DNA from: Saururus chinensis
Lineage: Eukaryota; Streptophyta; Magnoliopsida; Piperales; Saururaceae
Reading direction: 5' to 3'
NCBI GenBank assembly: GCA_035235625.1
Contig: CP141140.1
Coordinates: 15,396,685 to 15,460,684, forward strand
DNA: 64,000 nucleotides
This document shows positions 14,467 through 64,000 of this stretch, piece after piece. Both the position numbers and the translations under genes were made by a program. The notes below the pieces were generated by a model. The model saw only the letters and a list, made by a program, of their open reading frames with translations, had not been told where the DNA came from and ran no database searches. The first letter of the stretch is position 1; each line of letters opens with the position of its first letter.

Positions 14467-18191
<3,725 letters not shown>

Positions 18192-37435: not shown

Positions 37436-37810
37436 TGCAGGTTCATGCTTAATCGTCTAAACACTGTCGATTAGAATGGCCCTCGGCTAACAAACAAAAC
37501 TCCTGTCCATGCAGATTGAGGAATAGATAGGGGGAAGGAAAATAGGTGGTGGGTAGCTCCCCGTTATCGGGACTCATTGTTTTGGTTTTTTCCAATTCAA
37601 AATCAGGTTCAGACAATTCGGTTGGTCCAGACACTAATTTCTAGACGCAGCCGAGAAAAGATAAAATAAGGTCAGAGCAGGTATTTCCTTTTTTTTTTTT
37701 GGTTTCTGGGAGTGCTTAAACTGCAAGAAGCCCATCATCAAAGACCGTAACTCTGTCTGGGATAAGAGATTTTGTTGATTTGGTTCTTCAGCTGTGTGGG
37801 AACTGAATTA

Positions 37811-38057: not shown

Positions 38058-40397
38058 TTTTTTTTTTTTTCATTATATCGCGTTTGTATTGGCCTGTGTA
38101 CTATTAGATAAATATTAGGTGATGATATACATCACTGATAGCTAATTTATAGGCTTTTAAACAGTAAATGTTCTGATCCTTTTTTTCTCCTTTGTACTAA
38201 TGTCTGCATACAGAAATTGCAAATATCCGTTATGAAGAGGGTTATGCTAGGATTTTTCTGGGTCCTCCTTCATCTAGTAGTCAGCACTGTGCATCTGGTG
38301 ACCCGTACAACTCATAGTATCGAAAGCTACCTAATCTCAATTGCACAACCGGACAAGTATAATCAACTTCATTTAAATAAGTTAAGGTACCTGGCTGTGG
38401 TGGTGGACAGTGAGGAAGCTCTTTGTATCTCGAAAGTTGTTGAGCTCCTGTGCTGCTTGTCTGCTATTGGTGTTAAGCATGTCTGTCTTTATGATGCTGA
38501 AGGTATCATTTTGCTTGATTTAACGTCAAACCATTTATAGAACTTAAAATCATGGCCTTGTCGCATCTAGGTTTTATTTATTTTGGTGGAATCACTGTTA
38601 TTTAGCAGTTTTGATAGAGTTTTATTGATGTACTGCAGAAAATTTAAGCCTTCCTATGGGACATAGGCAAGTCCTTTTGTCGGGGTCCATCAATTTTCAA
38701 ACAATAAAGCGGACTAGTATTTTCCTGCCTTATGCAATGATTTGATGGGGACCTTGCTTACCTTTGGATGTGTTTTTGATAATTTTAACAGATAACTGCA
38801 CATGCTTCTATAAAGGAGGCCTTTTATTTATTGGTGTCATATGTTTTGTACTAGAGTTATTAATTCCTATTGTTATTTGTTAGTCTTACATTTTATTTGT
38901 TGTGTCAGGAGTATTGAAGAAAAACAAGGAAGTACTTTTGAAGAATGTGCATGATATGAGACTTTGGCAGGTGAGATTCTCATTTTGAACTTTTGATTCT
39001 TGCATAGCCCAAATGTTTATTTTATTGTGCAAGCTTTTGTTCGAGTAGTCTGGTGGCCCCATAATGGTGTGAGGAGTTCATGTCCATACTTAGTCTGCCC
39101 CCATTGTTTTATTCCTCGGTGTTAAACATACAGCACTGATTGTTGGCTTCATGTGAGGTAGTCCATATGAAACAGACAGCCAACACCCAACGAGTCTGAT
39201 GGGCAAGGGAGGTCTTGTCTTCTGACATATTTTTCGTCCCCCTTTGCCAGTTTGATTAACCCTTCACAGTTCAATTTGGAATGAGAAATGGGGAAGAGTA
39301 AATTTCCAACAAATTCTAGTATTTTGGTGTAGGGAACGGATGAGAACGATGCACATAAAGAGAAGATGGCCTTAGAGTTGCTTTGCTTCTCAAATGGAAA
39401 AGAAGCCGCAGCTAAAGCAGCCAGCTTTCTCTATTCTCAGCATTTGCAAGGCAGCCATTTCAGTAATGATCTAAAAGATCCAACTTTCACAGAAGATGAC
39501 ATGAACAGGGCACTTAAAGCTGTCGGTATGCTAGTATTTGACAAGTGCTGAATTATTGTCATTTTCTTACTCCTTTTGTCAATTTTAAGTAAGTCCTTCT
39601 TTTTATCTGTTGGTTAGGATGTTGGGGCCCAGAACCTGATCTTCTTCTTATATATGGAGAAGCCAGATGCCATTTAGGATTTCCGGCCTGGAGACTTCGA
39701 TATACAGAGATTGTGTGAGCTATATTCTGCATCATATGTTTTAAGTGTTTTAATTTATTTATTCATTATAATCCAAAGGTAGTGCAATTAAACTCGTTAT
39801 GCTATAAAAAGAGATTCATTATCGAATAAGATGCCTTGATTATAATACGTGGACAAAGTTACATCTCCATTGCAATAGATGGATTGCAATATTTAAGAGG
39901 TTTTAATCTGGTTTGAGAGTGTATCATTTTAGTGTTCACATTTTACATGGGAGCCAACTCTACAGCTGAAGCTAATCAAAGCCGGCATTTGGTGACATCT
40001 TTAGACATATGATGATCACATACTATCTATAGGGATCATGACGGGTGCAACTTTTTTCCTTTGTTGGTTTTCTACTTCGGAAACCTTTTCTATATTCATA
40101 GAACCTTCTCATGAAGTGTAGGATATACGAAAACAAAGTTGAAGATGGTAGTGTTTATATATGGAACTGGTTTGTCAAACTGAGATTCTTGTGGAGTGTC
40201 CATGATGTTTTCTGTTTTCCGTTTTCAAAGCAAGATTTTGGTCATCATTCATGTTGTATTTATTTATGTTCTTATACTGACCTTTCTTTAATTTTTTTAG
40301 ACATATGGGGACCCTGAGATCAATGCAATGCAGCGGTATACTAAAAGCCATTTATGAATTCACAAAGGTGCAACAGAACTATGGTAAGCCACCATGA
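37811..40397 (+). CDS. NUS1/LEW1-type subunit of dehydrodolichyl diphosphate synthase complex
   Basis: There are seven exons: 37811-37836, 37973-38000, 38214-38502, 38909-38970, 39333-39525, 39618-39714 and 40301-40397. Splice sites are GT-AG, phases close, and the product is 263 aa (plant LEW1 is about 250). The first two exons are short but keep one frame (MESSLLQSKSELQEEVIKKL) into exon 3. That exon carries a hydrophobic segment at about 27-47 (GFFWVLLHLVVSTVHLV), then LRYLAVVVDSEEA and GVKHVCLYDAEG. The C-terminal half holds EPDLLLIYGEARCHLGFPAW and RLRYTEIVHMGTL, the NgBR/NUS1/LEW1 signature within the cis-prenyltransferase fold. The subunit is non-catalytic; at the ER it pairs with a cis-prenyltransferase to make dolichol for protein glycosylation. 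The last exon ends NYG-KPP; NYG is directly followed by GTAAGC, so one more splice to a tiny exon cannot be excluded. Its 3' end is duplicated at 54201. Confidence 0.88.
38023..38070. repeat. (TC)n(TA)n(T)n tract in NUS1 intron 2
   Basis: About ten TC units, eight TA units, then a poly-T run, between exons 2 and 3. Confidence 0.85.
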
Positions 40398-41999
40398 GTT
40401 TAGACTCTTAATTCTTTTAACTAATTGTACTAGTGTCAAGGTTTCTGCTGAACGAAATTTTCATGCCTCAGAACTCTCTCCTGTTCCTCTATTTATGAAG
40501 CAATGCTGCCTTGATTTAACTTCGTGGATTTCTTGTGAACGTTTTTGCTATCTCAGAAATTTCTTTTATATGACCTGTTTTGTTTCTTCGTACAATCCAG
40601 CTCTTCTAAGTTTCAGCGAATACCAAATAAAAAAAATCATTATGGGTTTAATCAGGGCAAATGATGATTGTTTCGAATTGCTTTCAACGCCATCACCCGT
40701 TGAATCTAAATATATTAAAAAAAAAGAAATAGGTGAATTTAAGTTGGGAAGTTGGGTGTTAATGGATGGACATGGATGCAGGTTTACTGGGTGAGCATCT
40801 GTCCACTAAACACGATAGACTATTATAAAACTGTGCACATCTCTCCAAACAAGTGGATAAACATGGACGTCAATGAATATGTCAAATAGCTAGATTTTAA
40901 ACATAATGAATGAATTTTCTCACCCTAAAAAGTATAATATAAACTGGTTGATTAAAATAGAAATATTTTACAAAAAATTATAAATATTGTTTTTTGTACG
41001 AATTTGGTAATCTTCTAATAATGAATTAATCAATGCATGGACATGGCTTAGCGGATAGCTAAAGCTTGTGTCTGCATCCTTCTGCAAAGCCCGGATGTTT
41101 ATCAAATAGTGTTCCCTTATATCTAAATTCATGTGAAGATGGATTTACAGTTAATGTATGTGCTGCTTCAAGAGTTGTATTTTCATCCATTTTGATAATT
41201 GATTGATTTGTCTCTGTAATCAGGTACATGATATATGGTCAAGGATATGCATATTTTTGCTGTGGACTTGGGTGTTCTTACTTTGTGTGAAATATTATAG
41301 TGAGTACAATGTATGATGCGGGTAAATATGCATATGGGAAAAAAATGTATAATTTTGTATGGGGCAAAAAAATAAATAAAGTGGCATGCCCATAATAAAC
41401 TTCATATTTGAATAATTGGATATATGGTTTTAGTACTTAATATTATAATGTAGTTGGTGGTGGGGAGGGGATATTAAAAGACCTACAAGCTACATGTACA
41501 TTTTTATCTTACAGTTCTTTCTGAATCTATTTTTAACTAATCTCCTAGAATATTCTATTAATTCATCTAAATATTTGTGAAGCAGGTAGGGACAAATGAA
41601 CTCTATGTTCGTGCACTTTGACTAGTTACCATTAGCCAATAATACAAACTCGCCATATTCAAAGCCTGAGCTACTCAGGCTGTAACGAACTTATAACATT
41701 GTGGTGTCACTGCATGTGTCAATAAAAATCTTTGCAACCCGGCGAACTGCTTGGATAATACCTGACGTGAAACTGTAACATACTAAACAATACTTTCCTA
41801 GATATCAGTACTATCATAATACGGATGCACGCACACATTCTCTCAAAATAAAATGTGAGGATTGAATGACTTTTCTAGAAAGCAAAGCCATTTGATTTTT
41901 ATGAAATTCACATTTGTTATTATATTTTCAGCTAACCTGCAACGTATGGATTTCTGGGTGCGTCATAAGAATGGAAAGCACACTACTTCTTACCAAAAA

Positions 42000-42222
42000 C
42001 TGTCTGCATTTTTTATGTACCCTGTTCGTCGTGAGCTGAGTGTAAGCGCCTGTGAGGCATTTATTTTCGAGATCGATGGTGTACACGTTAGTGTATGTTA
42101 GCATAAGTAATATTCATGTTAATATGAATTAATATGTGTACTGTCGATCTCAAAAATAAACGCCTCACTGGCATTTCTTACGCTCAGCTCATAATCAATG
42201 CGGAGCATAAAAATCGCTTCCC
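42000..42222. mobile_element. Inverted-repeat MITE, absent from duplicate copy 2
   Basis: tctgcattttttatg, tcgtgagctgagtgtaagcg and tgtgaggcattta are mirrored by cgcctcactggcatttctta, cgctcagctcat, and cataaaaatcgcttcc. The corresponding place in copy 2 (near 56780) goes directly from aaaaccgtc to ttcggctgctgg. Confidence 0.7.
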
Positions 42223-43016
42223 TTTGGCTGCTGGCTGAAAAATACAGCGAATGCCTAGGTAGCTCATTCTTCACTCGATAATCCCTTCTTGTCTGCTTTG
42301 TTCCTTGTTCCCCGTCCATTTCTCTACTTACCTATCATTATTTTGTCTCTTCCATCACCACTGTCCCAACCTTTCACTTTCTTACTTTACACTTCCTATT
42401 ATGCAAAACCTTGCTTTCGTCCTCGTAGTGAATGGAAGCTGGGCAGACAAACCTTTGGATATACCCTCTCGTAGATGTCTCCAAAACCCATGTATTATTT
42501 TTTATAGAACCCTGACACATGCAAAGCAGTATTTTTTATAGCAATTGTTTGTGTAAAAAAAATATCCTTTTTAACACTTCTTCCCAAAGAGAACTTTGGT
42601 GCAAAACCCCCTAACTACAGGTGGTCTCACTCCACACAAACCGAGATTCACAATTTCAAATCTACTAGTGAAATTGCAGGCGTATACTGCATGACAAAGG
42701 GTGATTGTCTAGTTAACATCAGTTATACCATTTCACCTATTGTATTCTATTTGAGGCCAACTTTTTGTATTTAGAGTCACACAAACTACTCGCTCTGCCT
42801 TATATCAAGCCTCCATTTAGTTTTCCAAAATAAATTAAAATTAATTTATTTCAAAATTTAAATAGAGCTATTAATATGGGAAAGAGGCAACACTAAATAT
42901 AAATACATAAGTTGGTAGTTTGATCTTTAAGCGTGCTAGATGTGATATGCAAACTGAGGAAACTGCAATATGATTATGACTGGTTATTTAGTTATGTGAT
43001 AGATAGAGGGAGATTG

Positions 43017-44016
43017 TGAAGAGTGGCTGGACCAGTGGAAGCCCAGTGGGAGGGGGGTGACGCACCAATCAAAAACCAATCTTTAAATTAATCTACAATG
43101 AATTATGCATAGATCTCTAATCAATTAGCAATAATCATATATCAAATCAATGAATCATACAAATGGGAATTCAATAAGGGACAAATACGAACTAACCTGG
43201 GTTGTCCAGCCCTTGCACGCCCTCCAAAAGATCAGCCTTGCACGCCAATCACAAGAAACAACAAGCAAAGTAAAGGAGAAATACCTCTATGTGTTGATCC
43301 TTCAAAAGCCCTTTGCTTAGATTGAATCCTCAGCAGAGATCGGCCCCAAACCTTTTGATTTCAATGCTCCAACCAGCAAGGATAGCCACCACCTTTGTCA
43401 GCCTCGTCAAGGATCGAAGGAGAGGAGAGGAGGAGGGCAGCCAGCAAAGATTTTCTCCAATCCAAGGGGCTGGCCGAACTTGAGAAAGAGGGAGAGGGGG
43501 CGGCTGATTGAGAGAGGAGAGGAGCAAGAGAAGGGGGTGAACCACTAGGGCAACCCCTCTCCTTTCCCCTCTTTCCCTTTTATAGCCTCCTCTTTCCTCT
43601 TTTAAGTGGGCTTCAATTGGGCTCTCTTAATGGGCTTTCCCTGCTACGAATTCCGGCTTAAATCAAGAAGGTCAAACACAATGGGAGTGAGCTCTATCTC
43701 TCAGAGCCCGCGGAGGCCTGGACCCCCTGCACACAGCCAAGTCTGCGATGGAGTCGACCCCTCGCTAACCACAGGTCCCACCCTCGACACTTAATTCACG
43801 TGTTTGGAGCCCACAACATGTTAATACACGACCTAGTTGAATGCCTAGTGTGCATGTGTGACGTTGGCGGGTCCCAATCGAATTAGTGTAATGAAGGCAC
43901 ATGTGGGGTTGGCACGACCGCCCCCACCACCCTTGGACCTCGTGGCCAGTATCAGCTCACCTGGACCATGACAACGTTGAACCAAACCGGGCCCGAGCCT
44001 ATACCGTGGTCCAACA
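43017..44016 (+). mobile_element. 1000-bp solo LTR with 5-bp target duplication
   Basis: It begins TGAAGAGTGG and ends GGTCCAACA, i.e. TG...CA. It is flanked by GATTG at 43012-43016 and GATTG at 44017-44021. The duplicate region at 57571-57580 reads agattagtta without any insertion, which defines the empty site. It has no protein-coding domain; a TATA-like tttatagcc lies near 43579. It aligns with copy A at 922-1919. It must have arrived after, or been absent at the time of, the segmental duplication. Confidence 0.88.
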
Positions 44017-44208
44017 GATTGGTTACTTATTAATGTGACGAACAGGTAGAGGGTTTGTCCTTCATTTTGACTGGTTCATTGCCGTAGGAAATATACCATA
44101 TGACGTCATTGCTCTAAACCAAGCTAGTTGCAGGGCCATGAGCTATCTAAAAGCCTACTAGCAAATCTCAACCAAAAAAACGATAACAATATTCACTACC
44201 TCTCCACA

Positions 44209-44433
44209 ACAATAGTTTTTTATGTTCTATTTTGACAATGAGCCCCACGCAAGGGGCAAATGAGAGCCCTTATATTTGAGATCGATAGTGTATAAGTTAG
44301 TGCACATTAATATCAGTACTACTAACACTAATAATGTACACTAGTTTATATGTCATTGATCTTGTGGATGAAGGGCTCTCATGCGTTCTTTACACCGGGC
44401 TCATTGTAAAAAAAGAGCATTAAAAATGCTTCC
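44209..44433. mobile_element. MULE-like MITE, 9-bp target duplication
   Basis: The right terminus read inward is GGAAGCATTTTTAATGCTC, then acaatgagcccg. The left has agttttttatgttctatttt, then gacaatgagcccc. Flanks ctctccaca (44200-44208) and ctctccacg (44434-44442) form a 9-bp target duplication with one change. A counterpart is present in copy 2 (about 57773-57969), so this insertion predates the duplication. Confidence 0.8.
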
Positions 44434-44785
44434 CTCTCCACGCAAGCAACATGATCAAACAAATTCACTAGAAAAAGAGAGTAAAATTAAAATTCAGATT
44501 ACTCTGCCTCTGCAGCTCCTCATTGCGAGCTACCCAAGAGTTTGGATGGTGGCAACGGAGAATATTCCAATTGTAATGAAGGGAGATCCATCTACCCCTT
44601 AAGAATCCTCAACTATCGCTAGCATCGGGTTGCAACGACATTTTCTATAAGCACATCAAAGGAAGATTGACGCATCAGCTGGCTTGGTCTTTATTGAATT
44701 CATCCTTCAGCATTTCGTGAGGCTGCAGAGGGATGAGAGCAAGATGCAGTGAGGGTGACGGTGGAGTTGGCAATGTCAGCCAACA

Positions 44786-44985
44786 GAAGCGTTTTTAATG
44801 CTCCCTCTTCATTGTGCGTCGAGCGTAAGGAATGCCCAGGAGCCATTGGATTTCAACATGGGTGACGCACACACTAGCGCACGTTAATGTGCGCTAGTGT
44901 GTGCGCCACCCATCTTGAAATCCAACGGCTCCCATGCATTCCTTACGCTTGGCGCATTGTTAGAATGGAGCATATAAAATGCTTC
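44786..44985. mobile_element. 200-bp near-perfect hairpin MITE (MULE-like)
   Basis: Two ~97-bp arms are almost fully complementary around the centre gcgcacgttaatgtgcgc (near 44876-44893). Arm landmarks are gaagcgtttttaatgctcc / atggagcatataaaatgcttc, cgtaaggaatgc / gcattccttacg, gagccattggatttcaa / ttgaaatccaacggctc and acgcacacactagcgc / gcgctagtgtgtgcg. Flanks gtcagccaaca and atcagccgaca form an imperfect 10-11-bp duplication. It is absent from copy 2. Confidence 0.88.
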
Positions 44986-46044
44986 ATCAGCCGACATGTT
45001 CTGTACAATAGGACTTGATGTAGTATTTTAAATTAGTGATACACAAGCGGTGTGGGGATGGGTATAAGATTCGGAGTACATATATCAGCTTCCTTTCGTC
45101 AACCATGTCCGGACATTCCCTCTCTAAGCCCAATTCCTACACCAGCTATTCAGTTTGGACTGCTCGAGCTTCAGATAAACATGTGGAGACCTCCTATTGG
45201 ACACAAACAAGAATCAGCCCCTCAAAGCTTACAAATTCCCCTCCCTTGAGTCCATAAAATCTGAAAATGAATAGTACTACAGTTTTGAGTAGAGATGTAG
45301 TCAAGAGGTCGGGCTTGGGTAGGGTATTGTTAAACTGGTGAGTTAAACATAATTGATTCGTTTAGAATGAAAAGTTATTTTAATTATTAATTTAATTTTT
45401 TTAAAATATAAAATATTATCTATTAATAGCTACATTTAAAAAATTAGTAATTTTTATTAAATAGTAAAACCTACATAAAAAAGAGAAAATGTGCTTATAA
45501 TACTTTTTTTAAAATATTTAACTATTTAAATTAAATTAAATAAAACTTATTAATATACAACAAATTTTATTGTCAAATAGAACTATTAGTTTCTAAGAGA
45601 AGGAGTATATCTAAATATTTATTTAATTCAATATTTTACCTAAAAAAATATTAAAAGTTATAGTTCCTTTATTATTACCGGGCAACAAAATAACTCGTTA
45701 AGGCCTGATTTCCTAGGCTGAATAGCGAGACTAGCTTTAAAATATATATTAGACCTGTATAAAATATGGGCCTGGGCCTGTCCCAAAAAATACTGGCCTG
45801 CTTAATAGCCCAAGCCTAATAGTTGCAACTATCGATAGCCCAAGCCTAATAGTTGCAACCATTGATAGCCCAAGTCCACCAAGCTAATTTTTTTATGTGG
45901 TGTATAGTATTTGGGAAAAATTAACTTCCGGATGCCCGCAAGCCATCCCAGGTGAATTAGTGCTATCCATCAGATGATAATCGTGTGATTGTCTGTTTTA
46001 AACTAATGGGTACCTCTATTACACAGCTTCTTTCAGTCCTATGA

Positions 46045-46950
46045 GTGTTTTAAAAACTGGATCGGATCGGTCGGTCCAACCAGGTTTAGTTGGACCCGTT
46101 ATAAAAAATAGGCCAGTTCATCTTGATTTTAGGGTCGATTTAACCCGGCCAGGTCAGCATGACCCGGCCAGTTAAACCGGTTCCCAGTGTTCCGGTTCAG
46201 TCTGGGTTTTGAAAAAAAATATTACGAATCGATCAGGAGGTGCTCAAAGCTGGGCGATTTGGGGGCGACGGTGAACAGCAGCTGGCAATCTTCTCTAACG
46301 ACGACGATTCATCCTCTCTACATTCCTGCGTCGACCAACCCTTTTACGCCTAGCTTCATTTCATCGAAGGCTTGGATTGTTTTTGCTCAGTTGTAGGCCG
46401 GCGGCCATATTTCACCTCTCTGGGAAAGGGAAGAGATAAACTCCCCAGCTCAGTCGGCAGTGGTGATCGGAGGGAGATATGGTATGTGGAAGCCAGAGAT
46501 GAGAAGAGGGCAACTGAGATAGATGGGAGACGAGAGTGGAGAAGAGAGGTGGGCATCATCGATAGCCGTCTGCAAAGAAGAGGGCGGAAAAAAGGAGAAT
46601 GGGGCGAGTGAGAAATAGTGGCTGAAAGCATAGGCGAGGCGTCGACAATGCGAAGCAGAGGTTGATGGTGGAGCAAGACGGAGGACGGAGAGTGGGATCT
46701 GGGGACTTGGAGTCGGAGATCTGGGTGGCGAAGGAGTGGAGGGCGTCGGAGATCCAGGTGGTGAGGGAGCGGAGGGCATTGGATATCTGTGCGGTGAGGT
46801 GATTTAGGCGGCAAGGGATTTGGGTGGAGGGCAAAGTTTGAAGGGGGAGGACCGAGGAGAAGGTTAGATATAAACGGGTCAACCCGGGTTGAACCCAGTT
46901 AAACTGGCCTGGACACTATTTCGGGTCAGTGTCCTGGCAGGTTTTTAAAA
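46045..46950. mobile_element. TIR element with GTTTTAAAAAC termini
   Basis: The left gtgttttaaaaactgg is mirrored by the right cctg-caggtttttaaaacac. The sub-terminal parts are full of ccggcc, aaccggt and gggtcaac motifs. The interior holds C/T-rich DNA with open frames on both strands (46356-46882) of low complexity, probably not genes. Confidence 0.6.
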
Positions 46951-46983
46951 CACATCCTATCCCTGCGATACCCAAAGATTACC

Positions 46984-47695
46984 CCCCGAACACGTCTATT
47001 TGCACCCTAAGCATTATTCATCTATTGTTGTTAGATTGTATCAAGAAACATGAAGTAATATGTGTGTGGGCAAAAGCTCAATGTGGAGAAAAGCACCTTT
47101 ATGCTTCTCAAAATGCCCATAGAAGAATTCATAGATTGACCCAATTTATCCAGGTATAATCTTTACCCTTAGCAAAGAACACGAACCAGGAATCGAATAT
47201 GCCCCAAAAAGCGTAGAAATTTGACAACCACGGAAAATCGAGCAGAGCAAACAACTGCGTTGATTCAGATCGAATTACCTGAAACGGATCGCCGTCGTAG
47301 AAGAGATCGAAACTGAAGCCAGACAAAGAGAGAGAGCGATGGAAGTTAGTACAACGCACTGACTTTCCAAAATCGAGAAATAGCGAAGACAATGGCTCTC
47401 ATTGGTACCTCCGGCGAAAGAAAAACTCAAACTCCAGCCGCAAGCGATGTGGAAGAACCATAGGTGATGGGGAAGAATAGGCAAAAGGATGTGGAAGAAC
47501 CACAGACGATGGGGAAGAATAGGCAAAAGGCTTGGAAGATCGAGGGGTATACAGTAAATAAGCAAAAGGGGTAGTAAAGTAAAGATAAATTAAAATTCAA
47601 TTTGGGCACTTTGGGGTATATTTAAAAAAATTATAAATCACAGTGGGGTAAAGGAGATACGGGATAATGAGGGGTGCATATAGACGCGTTCTTAC
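46984..47695. mobile_element. Short TIR element, possible captured exon
   Basis: The left gaacacgtctatttgcaccc followed by cattatt matches, inverted, the right ataatgaggggtgcatatag followed by acgcgttc. On the minus strand, 47440-47280 has a purine/pyrimidine-balanced segment ending ccgtttcag|GTAATTCG, which looks like a 5' exon with a splice donor. The candidate protein segment (SLSGFSFDLFYDGDPFQ) matches no family I know. Confidence 0.55.
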
Positions 47696-47815
47696 CCGCT
47701 TCGGATCGGCTGTGAAGCACTCTCACCGGGTCAGGTGAGAGTGCCCAATAAAAAGTAGCCACATCCTCTTTCTCTCATAATGTCAGTAAACCGGGTTTCT
47801 ATACAATTTTTGTTT

Positions 47816-47893
47816 AAACCAAAATAGTTCAATTTTGGTTTTCATTCTAACCCAAAACCAAAATGGTTTAATTTTGGTTTTCATTCCAACCCA
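47816..47893 (+). repeat. Two ~39-bp tandem units
   Basis: Units begin with aaaccaaaat(a/g)gtt(c/t)aa, then ttttggttttcatt(c)(t/c). They are nearly identical. Confidence 0.8.
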
Positions 47894-48424
47894 TGGGTCT
47901 CTCCAGGGCTCCCCTCTTAATCTTCATCCCCTAAATCGCCACCAAAATCCCTCTTCCCCCAGAGGAGGTGCTCTCATGCCACCACTGCCTGGGAGAGATT
48001 CTGCCTCTGCAATCTACAGTCTGGCGGTTGTGGCCCTCACGATGCCACCATCCGGGAGAGAAGACTCGGATCTCCTATCCATAGCCCCCCTAATCGCCGG
48101 AGCCGGAGGAGGTGTCGGTGGTGGCTCTGACGCGCACCCAAGAGAGCAGTCATCTTCCTCTCCTAAATCCCCATCTGTGGCCCTTCTCTTCCCCTCATGG
48201 CGTCATCCTCATCGATGTCTCTCTCCTTCCTCATCTTGCTCCATCACTGTCGCCATCTAACGTCCATAGTCGGCCCAGTCCCACCTCTCTCCGACTACCC
48301 AGCTTTCAACTTCGTTGTCGCCTCTCGCCCGTCCATGGGGGCCTTGCAACTCCCCTCCCCTACTCATTCCTGCTTCATCTCTTCTTCTTCTTCTTCTTAT
48401 TCTGCTTCTTCCTCCCCTTCTTAT

Positions 48425-48580
48425 TCCATTGGAGCAATATTGTGGCAAGGTTAGAGCAATATTGAAGTGATATTGCGGCAAGGTTAGACCAATATTGCTC
48501 TACATTATAGCGATATTGCTGCAATATTGCTACTATTAGAGCAATATTACTCCAACATTATAGCGATATTGGCACGAAAC
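48425..48580 (+). repeat. AATATTG-motif tandem region
   Basis: About ten copies of the motifs gagcaatattg and gcgatattg/gcaatattg at 15-25-bp spacing, with a longer unit (acattatagcgatattg) repeated twice. Spacer words such as ggcaaggttaga also repeat. Confidence 0.75.
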
Positions 48581-48966
48581 TAGCGTGCCTAACACCAATC
48601 AGAAGACGAGTAAAGCCCAGTCAGCAGTCGTTATTTTCCGTCAATGGAGCTAACGGAGTTTTACATTTAGGGATTCAAAACTCAAATTTTGGAGGGATAT
48701 TGAAACTCAAATTTAGAATTCATTGAGGGCGATTTGGTCGTGGTGGCAGGACACGGCTCCCGGAGGGGGGTCCACTTGGTTCCATAGGGAGATGTTGCAG
48801 CGGGCGAAGGCGAGGAGGAGATCGGCGTGGAGGTCATTGATGCAGATGGCCAGTCAAGGGCATGTCCTCCATCCATTTGGCTTCGTCCTCTTTTTTCCCT
48901 TCCTCCGTCAACCCCACCGTGCCTTTCTTTCTGGACAAGATGATCTTCGTAATGGGGTTCACGGAT

Positions 48967-49323
48967 TTAAGTCCAAGGGCGACATTTCATTCGCTTTTGA
49001 GGGATTCGCCCTACTGCCCGATGGAGTAAGCTGGTGAAGGGAGAACGCTTGTCGCCGAAAGAGGTGTACTTGTAGGTGTCATCGATATCTTCGTCTTCAA
49101 CCAGCTTTCTACCGAATGATTTGGTTTTGGGAATCCTCTCGCACCTGTTCTTCGCCTTCTGGGTTACAGGGCAGATGGCCTTGTTCTTGCCATCACATGG
49201 GATTACGTCTTTGTCCATTGCCTCATTGTCTATTTCTCTGTCCAAGTGAGAAGTAGCCATGACATCTTTGAAGAGAACCAACAGCACAAGGATCCACAAC
49301 ACTTTGAATTTGAGGCTTGCCAT
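48967..49323 (-). CDS. Putative small secreted cysteine-containing peptide, 118 aa
   Basis: A single open frame on the minus strand. The N-terminus MASLKFKVLWILVLLVLF, then KDVMA, is a textbook signal peptide with likely cleavage near residue 23. The mature part (about 95 aa) is strongly charged. It has three cysteines in a C-x7-C-x9-C spacing (Cys43, Cys51, Cys61), a basic stretch, and then an acidic stretch EDEDIDDTYKYTSFG. Acidic residues around tyrosines resemble tyrosine-sulfation sites of plant peptide hormones, but I recognise no PSK, PSY, RGF, CIF, RALF or EPF consensus. The final ~25 residues (from GDKRSPF) are basic with a fourth cysteine and may be read-through of a decayed end. 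No TATA box or relative was identified in the window. It could be a genuine orphan peptide gene, an exon of a longer gene, or a decaying copy. Confidence 0.5.
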   Translation of the reverse strand: MASLKFKVLWILVLLVLFKDVMATSHLDREIDNEAMDKDVIPCDGKNKAICPVTQKAKNRCERIPKTKSFGRKLVEDEDIDDTYKYTSFGDKRSPFTSLLHRAVGRIPQKRMKCRPWT

Positions 49324-50210
49324 TGGCCCATCATTCTGTGATGCACTATTACGGGTTTTCCCTTTTCAGAACAGGTGTAGATTAAGAATGTTTATTTATT
49401 TGTTAAATGAGGCTTTATTGTAGATTGGGTATTCAATTATGGGTGTTACCTTGCATTAGCCCTCCCAGTGACAAAATTACTAGATTATTAATTTTTATAC
49501 TTTGCATCACATTACCTTGCATATATTTTTGAATTTTGTATCTGATACACAATTAATTGATCTCTACACTTGATATAAATGCCAACTACTAACCAAGACT
49601 TCTGTATCTTTTAAGGACTGATTTAGTATGAGCTGTTCATTCTCAAAATCTGATGCTATATATGTCTTCACTAGGCTGATACTAATATAAACTTTTCAGA
49701 TTCTTAATTTTGCGGAATGAAATACAAAAGATACTTAAAGAAACAAAACAGGAGGCTAATTAATTAGAGGTTATATAACCAGAGTATTTCTCTACCAAAC
49801 TAATATACTCTTCAGTCTTAAATCGTCCTATTTTATGAACAATTTCAAGCATGTAGCTCGAAGTGATTCAATTAGAATCGTGTGGGTAATTTTCACATAA
49901 TATGGAGCTAGCCAACTACTTCACAAATCTTCGAAATGATTCTTCTATGGTGTATACAGATTTAAATGGTCACCGGTTGACTCTTTCTATTGGGTCTATG
50001 AACTAAGTAATTAAGTAATAGCCTGAGTGAGATAAAAATGCAGTCAGAATAGAGGCGTTCTATTTCATTTGAGGTTTCGGTATTAGCATTAAGTAGTACT
50101 ATTTTGTAGCGTATTTCAAGAGTACTCAACTTGTTATCGTCTGTTTTGATCTTCAAAATGCACCATTATGTCTATGTGATATTATAAAACCGGCATCATG
50201 TCTATTGCAG

Positions 50211-50582
50211 AACACCATGTGCACGCCCACTTGGTCCATAAATGCCCACACCATATACTACATCACGCGAGGTAGTGGGTGAGTCCAGGCGGTGGGTCAC
50301 AATGGTAAGAAGGTGTTGGATCATACAGTGAATGCAGGGCTTCTGTTTGTGGTGCCACATTACTACATAGTGGTGAAGAAGGTGGATGAGGGTGGAATAG
50401 AGTGGGTGGTGTTCAAGGTCTCCACCATGCTGATGAGGAGCACTCTGACCGGAGCCAACTCTGCCCTCAAGGCAATGCCTACCTAAGTCCTGGCCAGCTC
50501 TTATAGGATGCTCAAGCATAAAAGGGGGCATGATATGTTGGTCCTTCCTCCTACAACCCGCTCCTCCTCTTATACAGAGTAG
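50211..50582 (+). pseudogene. 11S globulin (legumin-type) last exon, stop-interrupted
   Basis: After an acceptor (tctattgcag) one reading frame runs TWSINAHTIYYITRGSG, stop (50280-50282), VQAVGHNGKKVLDHTVNAG, LLFVVPHYYIVVKKVDEGG, IEWVVFKVST, LTGANSALKAMPT, stop (50484-50486), VLASSYRM, then a serine-rich tail and a final stop at 50582. This is the second cupin barrel and C-terminus of 11S seed storage globulins (W-x-x-NAH, V-x-x-V-x-x-NG-x-x-V-x-x, L-x-VVPQ, A-I-x-AMP-x-x-VL). Intact members are vacuolar hexamers in seeds. Only the last exon and a plausible 3'UTR (to ~50740, with aataatgaaa) are here; the earlier exons are not found upstream. The two internal stops are single-base changes (TGA and TAA), so it is a fairly young pseudogene fragment. 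Confidence 0.85.
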
Positions 50583-50744
50583 TGTTTTTGGACTTGTTAC
50601 AAGGAAGTAGATGCAAAGTAAGGCCAAGGGTTGTTTGTTTTTATTGTGTATGGAGAGTTATGAGGTTGGATAATAAAGAGGTGCATGTAAAGCAGGATGT
50701 ATCTATGTAGTGTGCATTATATAATAATGAAAGCAGTTGTTGCT

Positions 50745-51740
50745 GTTTATCATAAGAAGTTGTTGATATGTTTAACTAGTTTATTATGTCCATTAATATT
50801 TGTCAGAGTAATTTGTCAATCACCACACAAGTCTTGGGGGAACTGGTCACTGGTCAGTCAGCTAGCAGCCACAGCGTGTGGAAACTGGATGAATTGGATG
50901 AGATCGTCGGATGAAGCCCGGCATAGGATATTGGTAGAACCCGTCAATTGCCCCTTATAGAAGATGACCACGAAATTAGAGTTCTTAGTCTATGGTTGCT
51001 CTGGTCGTAAGGTCTTTAAATGCCATGATTCAGTCTTAAAATATGGCTTACATTCACCGTACATTCACAAAATTATGCTGATTTTATTTTTAGGCGAGAA
51101 CCCTTTGTTTAAGCCACCCCACTCCATTAACACCAAATTCACAATTACTTACTCTGGTCGTACTTCAGAAGATGTTTATATAAGCATCCAAAGCTTTGAT
51201 TGTGTAAAAAATATATACTGATACCAAGATTTCTACAGCAGGAAGATAACAAACAAAACAAACAATTATCAAGCTTGGAGCTTTTCTCGATATCAACCTG
51301 AAATTAAGCAAAATTTTATCCCATAAAATTTGCTCAATAATCTAAAATTTTGATGACTAGATTCAAATCCAATATTACTATAAAGGATCCATATGCCAAG
51401 AAGGTTGAATACCTTTAGGATTGCTGGCGTCGATAAAGTATGAGATACCAGGGGAAACAGGCGGGCGGCTATAGAGACACTGTTTGAGTTGTCGACAGAA
51501 GTGCTGGAGTCTAACCGAGATTGGAATGCTATGCGGCTTTGTGAAATCAGCAGGACTGTGGACTAGATCAGCCGGTGAAGGGAGACGCAGTGGCCGGAGA
51601 GAAAATGGCCCAATGGGGCAAATATTACGGTTAACAGGGGAAGCGGGTTAACAGGGCAAGCGGGAAAACAAAAATCCCCGCGCTCATTTGTTGAGCGCGT
51701 CTAATAATTTTTCTGTTGACGGCTACCCCGAACGACCTTT
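50745..51740. other. Intergenic, no gene recognised
   Basis: AT-rich DNA with two open frames (50697-50960 and 50964-51221) lacking recognisable domains. From ~51640 the composition turns GC-rich where the nested repeat region begins. Confidence 0.4.
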
Positions 51741-51744
51741 TTAC

Positions 51745-52464
51745 TCATCTTCTGATGGGTGCTAGGCACGCCAGTTTGGTGCCGTATCGGCACCTAATAT
51801 TTTCTCGGCATATCTTGCCCATCCGAAGCGCGTGACATATCTTGTTCTTCCAAGGGGCGGCGGTGAGTTGAGGTGCCCTGAGTTGCGTCGCCACTGATGG
51901 TGGCTGCCTAAGGAGGCAGTGAAGGCGGCGGTGAGTTGCGGCGCCAGCAGTGGTTGGCTGAGTTGCGGCGCCACCGATAGTGGCTGGCCGCAGTGAGGGC
52001 GGCGGTGAGTTGCACACCACCAGACCTTCAAGGTCCACCCATATTAAATCCACTAACTCGTCTATAATTATAGCCGGGGTATTGTCTGACGATAAACCAC
52101 CCGGCGCCACCGACTGGCCTACCGGAGTGGAGTTGCTAGAGGCGGCATTGGCTGTAGAGGTCCCAGCAGAGGCTGTCCGGGCTCGGGTACCGGCTGTGGC
52201 TGACCGCGCATGCTCCGTGGCATATCTTGTTCTTTGCACAGGAATGAGGAACGTGCTCCAGTTCACGTATGATCTGCCATTGGGCAATCTTACGGTTGAT
52301 TCCCGACGCTGTTGCAGAATGTACCTATCTTCTGCTTCAGTCCATCGCTTTCTCCCCATCCCTTTTCTTGGACTGGACAGTAGATAGAATTGGTGATCAG
52401 AGGGCCTTTTTCTTGAACAGAGGGTAAGAAGCGCTTCGGATCCGCTTCGTATGCCACGGAGCAC
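51745..52464 (-). CDS. Hypothetical 239-aa open frame with Myb-like motif, in repeat DNA
   Basis: This is one of the longest uninterrupted frames in the window. Residues ~36-52 read GRKRWTEAEDRYILQQR, like the first helix of a Myb/SANT repeat, followed by RLPNGRSYVNWSTFL. The rest is low-complexity Ala/Ser/Thr/Pro and then the translated GC-rich repeats (HCLLRQPPSVATQLRAP). A second, related coding-like version lies in opposite orientation at 52555-53019 (LEGLVAPQLTAALTASLG repeated). The frame may be open because the repeats lack stops rather than through selection. Function unknown; it may be the degenerate second gene of a transposon, as Myb-like proteins accompany several plant DNA elements. 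Confidence 0.25.
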   Translation of the reverse strand: MLRGIRSGSEALLTLCSRKRPSDHQFYLLSSPRKGMGRKRWTEAEDRYILQQRRESTVRLPNGRSYVNWSTFLIPVQRTRYATEHARSATAGTRARTASAGTSTANAASSNSTPVGQSVAPGGLSSDNTPAIIIDELVDLIWVDLEGLVVCNSPPPSLRPATIGGAATQPTTAGAATHRRLHCLLRQPPSVATQLRAPQLTAAPWKNKICHALRMGKICRENIRCRYGTKLACLAPIRR

Positions 52465-53010
52465 AGGCTTTCCCGACTGATGATGCGCGGTCAGGCTGTG
52501 CAGCCACAGCCGGTACCCGAGCCCGGATAGCCTCTGCTGTGACCTATACAGCCAATGCCGCCTCTAGCAACTCCACTGCCAGTCGGTGGCACCCCGGTTA
52601 CAACCATAGAAGAGTTCGTCTATTCAATCTTCAATCTTGAAGGTCTGGTGGCGCCGCAACTCACCGCTGCCCTTACTGCCTCCTTAGGCCCGCCAGCATC
52701 GGTAGGGCCGCAACTCAGCCAACCACGGCTGGCGCCGCAACTCACTCCACTGCCAGTCGGTGGCACCCCGGTTACAACCATAGAAGAGTTCGTCTATTCA
52801 ATCTTGGTGGCTGAAGGTCCGGTGGCGCCGCAACTCACCGCCGCCCTCACTGCCTCCTTAGGCCCGCCTGGCGCCGGTTCTACTGGCACCACAACTCACC
52901 GCTCCTTAGGCCAGCCACCATCATGGGTGGCGCCAGTTCTTGCTGTATTTCGCCGCCCCATCCTTGCTGTCGGCCGCTCCCTCATTGACGGCGCCGCCTG
53001 CCACCTATTT
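51850..53010. repeat. GC-rich nested inverted and direct repeat region
   Basis: An inverted repeat pairs ~51990-52203 with ~52501-52700. On the minus and plus strands respectively both read CAGCCACAGCCGGTACCCGA, then GCCCGGA-AGCCTCTGCTG, CAATGCCGCCTCTAGCAACT and CTTGAAGGTCTGGTGG. Within the right side, a ~190-bp unit (ccactgccagtcggtggcac ... gcgccgcaactcaccgc) is directly repeated from ~52567 and ~52747. The motif gcgccgcaactcac recurs many times on both strands. Confidence 0.85.
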
Positions 53011-53060
53011 TCGCAGTGAATTGGAGCAGGTATGACACCCATCAATATTTTGTTATAAAT

Positions 53061-53140
53061 GCATAAGACCAAATAAGAAACCAACATCTCTCGAATTCTT
53101 CATAAGACCAAATAAGAAACCAACATCTCTCGAATTCTAT
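53061..53140 (+). repeat. 40-bp tandem duplication
   Basis: cataagaccaaataagaaac, then caacatctctcgaattct, occurs twice in immediate succession. Confidence 0.92.
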
Positions 53141-53314
53141 AGGAAGAGTAGCTATGCATCGTCACCATTTAAATGTAAGAATCATTATGCTACCGAAGTC
53201 TAGGCTTAGCTGGGCCTTTGTAAATCACAAAAATTCCGGTCTAATTTTTTTTTTTGCAGTGGCACTTTAAAGTTTTCTTATCCTCAGTCTATGAATTTCT
53301 AGAGCCCAAATTAT

Positions 53315-53845
53315 ATTTTTAACAGAGAATTTTTAATATTTAACATAAAACCTCCTTCACATTTAGCCAAATCTTTAATCTCTACTGCAGAAGATAAAGC
53401 TGCCACTGTTGATACATAGTTAACATTGATGCTCTTTCTTCTTAAATCATCAAAAAGCTCCAATGCCAAAATAATACCGGTTCTGGGCATAACCAGAGAT
53501 CGTGTTCCCCAAAAATTTCATCTTTGTACAACATACTATCATATATTCGTCAAGCAACTTCCACATTTCCACACTTGGAATACATGTCAATCAATCCATT
53601 GAAAACTGCACGAGGGAAAACTCTTCTTATCACAAAACCATGCATAGCGGAAGAGCAAAGAGTTTACAAATTGCAGGAAACAAGTTTAACAAGCTCACTG
53701 AATTGGGCCCCACACCTGCCGATTGCATTTTTCTAAAGAACTCTAAAGCTTCGCCTGGCTCAGAGCTCTGAGAAGCACATGCAAGGATGGCAACCAAGCA
53801 ACCACATCTGGTTTAGGCATTTGTTCAAACATCTTTCAGCAATCA
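53315..53845 (-). pseudogene. Pentatricopeptide repeat (PLS-class PPR) protein fragment
   Basis: On the minus strand, and switching frame several times, it reads KMFEQMPKPDVVAW, ALEFFRKMQSAGVGPNSVSL, MHGFVIRRVFPRAVFNGLID, MYSKCGNVEVA (then TGA), RIYDSMLYKDEI, SGYAQNR, ALELFDDLRRKSINVNYVST and AALSSAVEIKDLAKCEGG. The words VFNGLIDMYSKCGN, W-x-x-MISGYAQN-type and F-M-QMP-PDVVAW are hallmarks of plant PLS-class PPR proteins, which edit or process organellar RNA. At least three frame changes and a stop disable it. Neither the N-terminus nor a DYW end is present. It is a truncated remnant lying immediately left of duplicated copy 2. Confidence 0.82.
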
Positions 53846-54200
53846 ATTTTGTGGTTTTTCCTCTAACCATTTAAGTTTACAAGACACATTTTGTGAGCAA
53901 AATACTGAAACGTAGCTCTCAACTGAAATGTTACAGCTTTCATCAAAATGTTTCAAACTAGTTAAATCCCTTCAAACGTAGTTTAGCTATCAAAATATAT
54001 CAAATGTAGCTCTTTTGTAGTCATCCTTGGCTCTGCGATGATGGCCTTCGGTTGATGTGCTAGTAAAACGAGCAGTTAATTATTCATTGGGGTTTCACTG
54101 TGTCACAATTTTCTGTAGCCTGCACCATGTCAATTCACAATCTACATCGGAAAATTTACTCCAACTATTACTCAAAGCATGATTTATAGGATTTAAAAGA

Positions 54201-55163
54201 TTTCTCAGCATTTGCAAGGCAGCCATTTCAGTAATGATCTAAAAGATCCAACTTTCACAGAAGATGACATGAACAGGGCACTTAAAGCTGTCGGTATGCT
54301 AGTATTTGACAAGTGCTGAATTATTGTCATTTTCGTACTCCTTTTGTCAATTTTAAGTAAGTCCTTCTTTCTATCTGTTGGTTAGGATGTTGGGGCCCAG
54401 AACTTGATCTTCTTCTTATATATGGAGAAGCCAGATACCATTTAGGATTTCCGGCCTGGAGACTTCGATATACAGAGATTGTGTGAGCTATATTCTGCAT
54501 CATATGTTTTAAGTGTTTTAATTTATTTATTCATTATAATCCAAAGGTAGTGCAATTAAACTCGTTATGCTATAAAAAGAGATTCATTAGCGAATAAGAT
54601 GCCTTGATTATAATACGTGGACAAAGTTACATCTCCATTGCAATAGATGGATTGCAATATTTAAGAGGTTTTAATCTGGTTGAGAGTGTATCATTTTAGT
54701 GTTCACATTTTACATGGGAGCCAACTCTACAGCTGAAGCTAATCAAAGCCGGCATTTGGTGACATCTTTAGACATATGATGATCACATACTATCTACAGG
54801 GATCATGACGGGTGCAACTTTTTTACTTTGTTGGTTTTCTACTTCGGAAACCTTTTGTATATTCATAGAACCTTCTCATGAATTGTAAGATATACGAAAG
54901 CAAAGTTGAAGATGGTAGTGTTTATATATGGAATTGGTTTGTCAAACTGAGATTCTTGTGGAGTGTCCATGACGTTTTCTGTTTTCAAAGCAAGATTTTG
55001 GTCATCATTCATGTTGTATTTATTTATGTTTTTACACTGACCTTTCTTTAATTTTTTTAGACATATGGGGACCCTGAGATCAATGAAATGCAGCGGTATA
55101 CTAAAAGCAATTTATGAATTCACAAAGGTGCAACAGAACTATGGTAAGCCACCATGAGTTTAG
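54201..55163 (+). pseudogene. Truncated second copy of NUS1/LEW1 3' exons
   Basis: It contains the 3' part of exon 5 (54201-54292), all of exon 6 (about 54385-54481) and exon 7 (about 55061-55157) of the NUS1-like gene with their introns, but no exons 1-4 and no promoter. Splice sites are retained. Coding changes relative to the intact gene include Pro to Leu in EPDLLL (now ELD), Cys to Tyr in EARCH (now EARYH), and Gln to Lys in RSMQCS (now RSMKCS). The first two fall in otherwise conserved positions. With no start it cannot make the protein. An antisense or read-through transcript is conceivable but unsupported. Confidence 0.88.
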
Positions 55164-57772
55164 ACTCTTATTCTTTTAACTAAATGTACTAGTGTCAAGA
55201 TTTCTGCTGAACAAAATTTTTGTGCATCAGAACTCTCTCCTATTCCTCTATTTTTGATGCAATGCTGCCTTGATTTAACTTCATGGATTTATTGTGAACG
55301 TTTTTGCTCTCTCAGAAATTTCTTTTGTATGACCTGTTTTGTTTCTTTATACAATCCAGCTCTTCTAAGTTTCAGTGAACACCAAATAAAAAAAATCATT
55401 ATGGGTTTAATCAGGGCAATAGATGATTGTTTTGAATTGCTTTCAACGCCATCACCCATTGAACCTAAATATATTAAAAAAAAACAAATTGGTGAATTTA
55501 AGTTGGGAAGTAGGGTGTTAACGGATGGACATGGATGCAGCTTGACTTGGGTGAGCATCTGTCCACTAAACACGATGGACTATTATAAAACTGTGCACAT
55601 CTCTCCAAACAAGTGGATAAACATGGACGTCAATGAATGTCAAATAGCTAGATTTTAAACATAATGAATGAATTTTCTTACCCTAAAAGTATAATATAAA
55701 CTGGTTGATTAAAATAGAGATATTTTACAAAAAATTATAAATATTGTTTTTTATGCGAATTTGGTAATCTTCTAATAATGAATTAATCAATGCATGGACA
55801 TGGCTTAGCGGATAGCTAAAGCTTATGTCTGCATCGGATGTTTATCAAGTAGTGTTCCCTTATGTCTAAATTCATGTGAAGATGGATTGACAGTTAATGT
55901 ATGTGCTGTTTCAAGTTGTATTTTCATCCATTTTGATAATTGATTGATTTGTCTCTGTAATCAGGTACATGATATATGGTCAAGGATATGCATATTTTTA
56001 CTGTGGACTTGGGTGTTCTTCTTTATATGAAATATTATAGTGAGTACAATGTATGATGTGGATAAATATGTATATGGGAAAAAAATCTATAATTTTGTAT
56101 GGAGCAAAAAAAATGTGGTATGCCCATAATAACATTCATACTTGAATAATTTGATATATGGTCTTAGAACTTAATATTATAATGTAGTTGGTGGTGGGGA
56201 GGGGATATTAAAAGACCTACAAGCTACATGTACACGGAGATAATATTAGATTTTTCAAGTTTATCTTACAGTTCTTTCTTAATCTATTTTCAAATAATCT
56301 AACTATTTGTGAAGCAGAAAGGGACAAATGAACTCCATGTTCGTGCACTTTGACTAGTTACCATTAGCTAATAATGCAAATTCGCCATATTCAAAGCCTT
56401 AGCTACTCAGGCTGTAACTAACTTATAACATTGTGGTGTCACTGCACAGTCTGCATGTGTCAATAAAAATCTTTGCAACCCGACGAACTGCGTGGATAGT
56501 ACCTGACGTGAAACTGTAACATACTAACCAAAATTTTCCTAAAGATTAGAACTATCATAATTCGAATGCACGCACATATTCTCTCAAAAATAAAATGTGA
56601 GGATTGAATGACTTTACTAGAAAGCAAAGCCATTTGATTTTTATGAAATGCACACATGTTATTATATTTTCAGCTAACCTGCAACGTATGAATTTCTGGG
56701 TGCGTCATAAGTGGTCATACGAAATAAAATAAAAAAAGCAAAGAATGGAAAGCACACTATTTCCTACGAAAAACCGTCTTCGGCTGCTGGCTGGAAAATA
56801 CGGCGAATGCCTAGGTAGCTCATTCTTCCCTCGATAATCCCTTATTGTCTGTTCCTTGTTCCCCGTCCATTATCATTATTTTGTCTCTTCCATCACCATT
56901 GTCCAACCTTTCACTTTCTTGCTTTACACTTCCTATTATGCAAAACCTTTTATGCACCTTGCCTTCGTCCTCGTAGTGAATGGAAGCTGGGCAGACAGAC
57001 CTTTGGATATACCCTCTCGTAGATGTCTCCAAAACCCATGTATTAATTTTTATAGAACCCTGACACATGCAAAGCAATATTTTTTATAGCAATTGTTTGT
57101 GTAAAAAAAATATCCCCTTTAACACTTCTTCCCAAAGAAAACTTTGGTGCAAAACCCCCCAACTACGGGTGGTCTCACTCCACACAAACCGAGCTTCACA
57201 ATTCCAAATCTACTAGTAAAATTGCAGGCGCATACTGCATGTGCTGAACAACAAAATGTGATTGTCTAGTTAACATCAGTTATACCATTTCACATATTGT
57301 ATTCTATTTGAGGCAAACTTTTTGTATTTAGAGTCACACAAACTACTCGCTCTGCCTTATATCAAAGCTCCATTTAGTTTTCCAAAATAAATTAAAAATA
57401 ATTTATTTTAAAATTTAAATAGAGCTATTAATATGGAAAAGAGGCAACACTAAATATAAATACATAAGTTGGTAGTTCACATGATCTTTAAGCGTGTTAG
57501 ATGTGACATGCAAACTGAGGAAACTGCATAAGCCTATGACTGGTTATTTAGTTATGTGCCAGACAGAGGGAGATTAGTTACTTGTTAATGTGACGAACAG
57601 ATAGAGGGCTTGTCCTTCATTTTGACTGGTTCGTTGCGGTAGGAAATATACCATATGACGTCATTGCTCTAAACCAAGCTAGTTGCAGGGCCATGAGCCA
57701 TCTAAAAGCCGACTAGCATATCTCAACGAAAAAACGATAACAACATTAATTCACTACCTCTCCAGAGTTTTT

Positions 57773-57969
57773 TATATTCTACTTTGACAATGAGCCCCAC
57801 ACAAGGATATCTAAGATCCACGGTATATAGGTTAGTGTATGTTAATATCAGTACTACTAACGCTAATGATATATGCTAGTTTATGTATCATCGATCTTGT
57901 GAATGAAGGGTTCTCATGCATTTTTTACACCAGGCTCATTGTCAAAAAGTGGCATTAAAAATACTTCCC
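57773..57969. mobile_element. MULE-like MITE (copy 2 ortholog of 44209-44433)
   Basis: It has the same gacaatgagccccac ... ccaggctcattgtc inverted repeat at the corresponding duplicate position, with the right flank ctctccacg conserved. It has scattered changes and a small deletion at the left. Confidence 0.7.
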
Positions 57970-58470
57970 TCTCCACGCAAGCAACGAGATCAAACAAACA
58001 CACTATAAAAAGAGAGTAAAATTAAAATTCAGATTACTCTGCCTCTGCAGCTCCTCGTTGCCACCTACCCAAGAGTTTGGATGATGGCAACGGAGAATAT
58101 TCCAATTGCAATGAAGGGAGATCTATCTACCCCTTAAGAATCCTCAACTATCACCAGCATCGGGTTGCAACGACATTTTCTATAAGCACATCAAAGCAAG
58201 ATTGAAGCATCAGCTGGCTTGGTCTTCATTGAATTCTTCCTTCAGCATTTCAGTCAACCACGTCCGGACATTGCCTCTCTAAGCAAAATAACTCGTTAAG
58301 GCCTGGTTTCTTAGGGTGACTAGCGACGGGTTTCAAAATATTAGGCCCGTATAAAATATTGGCTCGGGCCTGTCCCAAAAAATACTGGCCTGCTGCTTAA
58401 TAGCCCAAGCCTAATAGTTGCAACCATCGACAGCTCAAGCCCACTAAGATAAATTTTTTTATGTGGTGTA

Positions 58471-59325
58471 TATTTTACGGCAAGACGAAAAAACAGAAAT
58501 ATGTGGCCCACTTCTCAAAACAGGAGGCCCATTTTCTAAGACACGATCGTGAAGCTGTGATGCAAAGTATCTAGTATCTACAATTAACGTAAATAAAATA
58601 TTTTCTTTATTATAACGGTCCTTTACGAACGAGCCCCAAGGGCCCAATTTGCATCCCATGCACGAGCTGAATCTGGTGGGCGAAGAAGTTCATCTGGAAA
58701 CAGTAGGGTTAATGGGTTTGGGTGACAAAAGCCTGTCATAATTTTAGGGTCGGACCAATTTCTTAGTATGAGGTTAGGCTTAGGGCTAGGGCTGGGCGAA
58801 AATTTTAATTTCATCTTTAGGGTTCGGGCCTAACCCCCAGCCTACCAAGGTTTGGCCTGCTTGCTGCCCTAGTTATAATTGACTCGGGCTCATGCATGTT
58901 TGCATGAGCTTGAGCGGATACTCCTTAGGAGGCAGACATGTTGCATGTCACCTTTGCCTCCGGATTGAGATTCAACAACCTATGATGTCGGGCTCATGTT
59001 TGATGCACGTAAACCTTGTACTAACTTTTTCCTAAAAAGTTATTATTAAAAAATAAAAATATATATTTATAACGTTAATTGAGTCAAGTTGCATAACATA
59101 TTAAAGGGATGCTAAAATAGTTGCATAGTAATGTCGTGGCCTACAAACACAATGCTAACTACTCCCAATGAACTTGTCTAGCCTAACCCGTTTTCATGAC
59201 AAGGCTAGGTGACCAACAATAGGAGACTAATTCATCACCCAAAAATGGTGTAAGAGAAACTTGGGAAATAGATCCAACAATTTTCATATTCTCCCAATCC
59301 ACATGTCCTCTCGTCATAACTCAAG
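58471..59325. other. Intergenic, no gene recognised
   Basis: Contains no supported coding frame. The gggctagggctgggcga and gggcttgagc-type words resemble the sub-terminal motifs just inside the duplicated block. Confidence 0.4.
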
Positions 59326-62236: not shown

Positions 62237-62244
62237 TATAAAAG
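62237..62244 (+). promoter_or_regulatory. TATA box of the histone H3.3 gene
   Basis: TATAAAAG, followed by GC-rich then pyrimidine-rich DNA typical of a transcription start at about 62265-62275. The 5'UTR exon then ends at 62338 (gcgtaaaag|gtgaat). Confidence 0.75.
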
Positions 62245-62338
62245 CCGGCCGCCCCTCTTCCGTTAGAACGTTTCGTTCGATCTCTCTTTGATTTCTCTGT
62301 TTTCGCGTTGACGAAGGGAGAATTTGAGCGCGTAAAAG

Positions 62339-63947
<1,609 letters not shown>

Positions 63948-64000
63948 TGTGACCTGCTTAGCTCGAGTGGTGGTTGCATCTTCTTTTGGCTGACTTGGTG

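Follow-up and report, generated by a model that had tools for sequence, protein, structure and literature searches.

A headless second copy of a NUS1/LEW1-type gene in Saururus chinensis, probably formed by local duplication through non-homologous repair

The genome of Saururus chinensis carries on chromosome C1 a NUS1/LEW1-type gene whose 3' half occurs a second time a short distance downstream. The stretch of DNA analysed here, called the window below, comprises 64,000 nucleotides (assembly GCA_035235625.1, contig CP141140.1, positions 15,396,685 to 15,460,684 of the forward strand), and unprefixed positions are those of the window. The duplicated part consists of the last two and a half of the five coding exons of the gene and about 5.5 kb of downstream DNA. 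If the 5' half of NUS1 is called A, the duplicated block B (copies B1 and B2), the spacer between the copies X and the native right neighbour of the block C, the comparisons presented here show the final structure, as read from the sequence, to be A-B1-X-B2-C, with its right junction lying within a repeat. This structure probably arose by a local segmental duplication through non-homologous repair, which would have left a headless second copy of NUS1.

The complete gene lies on the forward strand at 38232-40397. Its open frame of 239 codons is distributed over five coding exons (38232-38502, 38909-38970, 39333-39525, 39618-39714 and 40301-40397) delimited by GT donors and AG acceptors. By homology, it encodes the NUS1 subunit of the dehydrodolichyl diphosphate synthase complex: all six PDB sequences matching its product at E<=0.01 are named NUS1 and are chains of such complexes, the best one matching residues 55-237 (E 4.7e-12). 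The protein scores only 14.2 bits against the Pfam model of the catalytic cis-prenyltransferases (PF01255), under the curated cut-off of 27, and therefore is not classed as a catalytic cis-prenyltransferase; NUS1 is the partner subunit. The R-x-G found near the C-terminus of the solved NUS1 chains, which we take to be a motif of those chains and which is not used here to define the plant family, is replaced by N-x-G in the window protein (QQNYGK versus EQRLGK). The N-terminus looks hydrophobic by eye.

Self-BLAST of the window reveals four collinear plus/plus blocks, 39434-41969/54202-56711 (93.1% identity), 42222-43015/56778-57575 (90.1%), 44016-44716/57571-58251 (87.5%) and 45686-45846/58284-58441 (84.8%). 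Their bit scores sum to 5,960, the best of 20 mononucleotide shuffles of copy 2 reaching 30.1. Base-by-base alignment places the left edges at 39434/54202 (within about 2 bases) and the right edges at 45906/58471 (within about 5 bases). Copy 1 thus corresponds to 39434-45906 and copy 2 to 54202-58471, both on the forward strand, which agrees closely with the pair of blocks at 39434-45910 and 54201-58470 proposed in the first-pass annotation. The latter had also recognized the 3' end of a NUS1/LEW1 gene, an identification that holds given the NUS1 match of the complete gene and the absence of the first half of the coding sequence from copy 2. Over 4,182 aligned columns, the copies are 94.4% identical, with 234 substitutions (152 transitions and 82 transversions). 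Their divergence had been described as low and mostly single-base; the latter is incomplete, as the longest indels reach 999, 557 and 380 bp. Because of these indels, copy 1 is longer than copy 2 (6.47 kb versus 4.27 kb). The left breakpoint does fall within a coding exon, as had been claimed, but this is coding exon 3 of 5 (39333-39525); calling it exon 5 would require two untranslated 5' exons.

Copy 2 therefore comprises the end of coding exon 3, the two following exons and downstream DNA, with a native right side. As its introns and splice sites are retained, a retroposed pseudogene is ruled out. Copy 2 encodes residues from about 145 on only and so lacks a complete NUS1/LEW1 coding sequence; its earlier description as promoterless fits the missing 5' half. 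The coding parts of the copies differ at four sites, three non-synonymous and one synonymous, the latter in copy 2. Two changes at supposedly conserved residues (EPD to ELD and RCH to RYH) had been attributed to copy 2. Both, P-to-L and C-to-Y, did occur there, and the mutated P is common to the window protein and to both PDB NUS1 alignments shown, whereas the mutated C aligns with T or S and thus is not a shared residue. The third non-synonymous difference (Q/K) is assigned to copy 1 because the paralogue on chromosome C3, described below, has K like copy 2. Most likely, B2 is a headless fragment that does nothing and drifts, and it would yield no working protein. Gene counts in S. chinensis call for caution here: annotation of the fragment at 54202-55160 as a NUS1 gene is to be avoided.

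A false heterotype duplication, i.e. an assembly artefact in which two haplotypes of a single locus are joined end to end, would produce similar pairs of blocks. This explanation must be considered since the heterozygosity of S. chinensis is reported to be 2.50% (PMC11139940), and false duplications occur where haplotypes diverge above usual (PMC9516828); furthermore, the first 600 aligned bases of the two copies differ by only 1.0%. However, the overall divergence of 5.6% and the 999-bp insertion argue against it, and a P-to-L change at a residue shared with the solved NUS1 chains would be odd for an allele of a working gene. The window contains no ambiguous base (0) and no gap separates the copies, although gaps are among the characteristics listed in PMC9516828, and the junction between X and B2 would probably offer hardly any overlap usable by an assembler. 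All this makes an artefact improbable, without making it negligible, and the reported high heterozygosity means that the fragment calls for a read-level check.

The two-copy picture initially drawn must be extended to a further locus beyond the window. A nucleotide search of the genome with 39434-41969 returned 59 matches, i.e. the two window copies, C3:1581731-1583033, C3:1586239-1587512 and 55 others, all located inside one repeat at about 41250-41627. In a protein search of the genome for NUS1 exons, all 13 candidates belonged to the window gene (five exons), to a gene on C3 (five exons) or to the window fragment (three exons only). The C3 gene is a second open NUS1 gene, its coding sequence being open across all five exons; in its last exon, located near 1582615-1582713, the stop codon of the window gene is replaced by an Arg codon, the last open frame having 40 residues versus 38. 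Between the window gene and the C3 gene, the synonymous divergence (dS) is 0.146 and the non-synonymous divergence (dN) 0.033, which indicates that the pair as a whole has been under constraint. The whole-genome duplication of the species has its peak at a synonymous divergence (Ks) of about 1.15 (PMC11955255); with a dS of 0.146, the C1/C3 pair is much younger, which rules out its origin by that event. The clear match between the window and C3 extends from 37573 to 59168, preceded by a small piece at 37480-37519, and either C1 or C3 may hold the older NUS1 site. A DEG1-like gene lies nearby; a search with one of its exons found nothing on C3, the sole other match being weak and on C1.

The C3 locus allows the changes to be polarized. 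The three-way comparison of 3,595 columns assigns 80 private changes to B1, 82 to B2 and 380 to C3, and all three sequences differ in 17 columns. Therefore, B1 and B2 are sisters, and the local duplication has roughly 0.4 times the age of the C1/C3 split, in relative terms only.

The order of the segments before the local duplication can be deduced from both edges. On the left, copy 1 is the uninterrupted gene. On the right, copy 2 is followed by C (58488-59168, forward strand), which is matched in the same order downstream of the C3 gene: there, the gene and the block are followed by an insert of about 850 bp, then by homologues of 58488-58973 (69% identity) and 58890-59168 (74%). Furthermore, the right edge of copy 2 lies within a continuous repeat called R (58350-58796, forward strand), which has a short gap inside it. 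R spans the B2/C border in the window order at C1:58.42 Mb and on C6, and on C3 with the insert of about 850 bp, whereas B1 leaves R at 45906. The comparison with C3 and with repeat R shows that the ancestral order, as far as sequence can tell, was A-B-C. As copy 1 keeps the original left neighbour and copy 2 the original right neighbour, the derived part is the spacer 45907-54201 with its two junctions. The block had been described as copied 15 kb downstream; the start-to-start distance is indeed 14.8 kb, in the same orientation, but this is not a simple placement of a copy, as the C3 comparison makes the 8.3 kb spacer and its junctions the new material.

Spacer X (45907-54201) is composed of several repeats and of about 1.26 kb without any other match in the genome search. 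Its length of 8.3 kb falls to about 4.1 kb without two elements named V and Z. Element V (46043-46955) has inverted ends identical at 13 of 15 bases and a direct repeat of 5-6 bp (CCTAT or TCCTAT) at its ends. Element Z (48571-51806), whose limits are those where its genome copies stop matching, also has inverted ends, with no target-site duplication agreeing with these limits; it is 97% identical to C1:10223702-10225960 over 2.26 kb. The stretch 51800-53061 (1.26 kb), for which the genome search gave no other match, a result that does not prove rarity, looks rich in G+C and contains repeats of its own, both direct and inverted, as well as open frames on each strand. X is not one transposon, since V and Z are each a repeat in its own right, with a distinct set of genome copies, and the 1.26 kb stretch is unmatched elsewhere. 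Nor is a displaced copy of nearby sequence supported: X gave no match in the parts of the window outside the duplication (1-39433 and 58472-64000), in the 10 kb preceding the window and the 20 kb following it, or in the 60 kb around the C3 gene.

The right end of the spacer is formed by a repeat called T (53101-54199, forward strand). The six genome matches of T that reach this end all stop at 54198-54202, as would be expected if T were a complete transposon whose end forms the junction. This possibility is rejected, since these six copies (from five fetched places), once aligned together, continue beyond 54199 into a sequence that they share and that is missing from the window. The X/B2 junction therefore joins a broken T to coding exon 3, with at most 2-3 bases shared and 1-2 bases unassigned. 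An internal cut with so little shared sequence is what end-joining or template switching leaves behind, unlike transposition or crossover between repeats. Both junctions cut into older repeats, the B1/X junction lying within R. Capture of the 3' end of NUS1 by a transposon, of the Helitron or Pack-MULE type, or recombination between copies of one repeat would account for a repeat-rich spacer and for a copy 2 whose left edge abuts a repeat. However, T is cut inside and not at its end, and the right side of copy 2 runs into its native neighbour instead of being enclosed by the ends of one element. As for a crossover, self-comparison reveals no repeat common to exon 3 and to the B/C border, T meeting exon 3 and R meeting X. 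Capture and repeat recombination are thus very improbable.

The same final structure could also result from two steps. An ordinary tandem duplication would first have copied a longer unit, perhaps the gene in full; a later deletion in the middle, with insertions, would have taken away both the end of copy 1 and the 5' half of copy 2 and left X. This scenario has the advantage of dispensing with a distant template, and a deletion by end-joining with filler between neighbouring duplicated genes is known for maize p2/p1 (PMC2686159). It is nevertheless unlikely, as X retains no trace of A or C in comparisons with window 1-39433, 58472-64000 and 20 kb past the right end.

Under the favoured local duplication by non-homologous repair, repeat R would have broken where B meets C, and the break would have been repaired non-homologously. 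The broken end may have acquired the ancestor of X, a repeat-rich sequence from another place that ended within a copy of T, either by joining or by copying. From there, joining or a template switch would have led into coding exon 3 of NUS1, on the sister chromosome or on the homologous one, and B would have been traversed a second time as far as C. This gives A-B1-X-B2-C, with the complete gene retained in B1. The 999-bp insertion in B1, at least, landed later, as Z probably did too. Both the repair route and the source of X are thus proposed conditionally. A narrower version, which is put forward tentatively and is itself unlikely, combines these steps in one replication-based repair event in the plant germ line, with two template switches that placed about 4 kb of repeat-rich DNA derived from elsewhere at a tandem junction. 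If true, this insert would be far longer than the filler DNA named in PMC2686159, which reaches up to 131 bp.

Several points weigh against the favoured origin. The evidence from C3 on the ancestral order is partly repeat-based, because 58488-58796 is itself a repeat, also present at C1:58.42 Mb and on C6, and the C3 match amounts to just 69-74%. No donor was found for X as a whole, and copying from a distant template finds no support from a match for 51800-53061. The evidence from shared junction bases comes from X/B2. The four coding differences are too few to prove that copy 2 has lost constraint. A simple duplication does not explain why the first 600 aligned columns differ by 1.0% versus 6.4% elsewhere (6 differences versus 228 in 3,582 columns; Fisher p 0.02 using C3, for a stretch picked after looking); this low divergence possibly reflects gene conversion, chance or an artefact. 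Lastly, all comparisons rest on the sequence of one assembly.

The three loci also answer in part the question, raised by the first-pass annotation, of which transposons came before and which after the duplication. A 999-bp insertion in copy 1 (43017-44015, forward strand), flanked by the 6-bp target-site duplication AGATTG, postdates it since its site is unoccupied in copy 2 and on C3. Stretches 935-1919 and 43022-44016 belong to one repeat family (71% identity), the second being this insertion. A scan for target-site duplications, with about 2,500 end pairs per element, gave repeats of 4-8 bp in 12 of 12 stretches, so that such repeats mean little alone; AGATTG is retained as real because the unoccupied site is seen twice, and the 5-6 bp end repeat of V is likely a target-site duplication. 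Sequences 44718-45097 and 45129-45685, present in copy 1 and absent from copy 2 and C3, were likely gained by copy 1; within the first, a 200-bp stretch (44786-44985) matches its own reverse complement at 81%. Z probably landed after the duplication, as its nearest copy among the matches listed differs by 3%, less than the blocks differ from each other. As the junction cuts T, this repeat was in place by the time of the local duplication. Two repeats predate both duplications, namely R, which is present at all three loci but shortened in copy 1, and the one at about 41250-41627.

Elsewhere in the window, 21203-21514 (reverse strand) corresponds to an exon of a chloroplast DEG1-like protease, with Protease Do-like 1 as its best match (3qo6, E 2.3e-37); judged by eye from the list of open reading frames, the gene extends over about 19621-23608. 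An alcohol-dehydrogenase-like exon lies at 14933-15286 (forward strand; best match ADH class-P, E 3.9e-27). An open frame at 9384-9713 (forward strand) displays a weak match to retroelement aspartic proteases (E 0.04), under the Pfam cut-off.

Partial, 5'-truncated local duplications of plant genes give pseudogene fragments. The S. chinensis duplication resembles them in its retained introns, its conserved orientation and the loss of the promoter side and of the first exons. It differs from them by an 8.3 kb repeat-rich spacer and by the existence of a dispersed complete paralogue that reveals the ancestral order. By its title, a paper from 2016 (cited in PMC8316200) also deals with direct duplications formed during break repair. 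Unlike the filler of the maize p2/p1 chimera, which is 50 bp long and copied nearby (Goettel and Messing 2009, PMC2686159), the spacer in S. chinensis reaches 8.3 kb, or about 4.1 kb once V and Z are subtracted, with no template found; common to both cases is a non-homologous junction that falls within a gene and between duplicated units. S. chinensis thus has two complete copies of a dolichol synthesis gene on separate chromosomes, of which one was later copied again in part, and the order of these duplications and of some transposon insertions is readable from three related loci. Globally, this is an ordinary genome scar of a known kind, in which the order of events is unusually readable.

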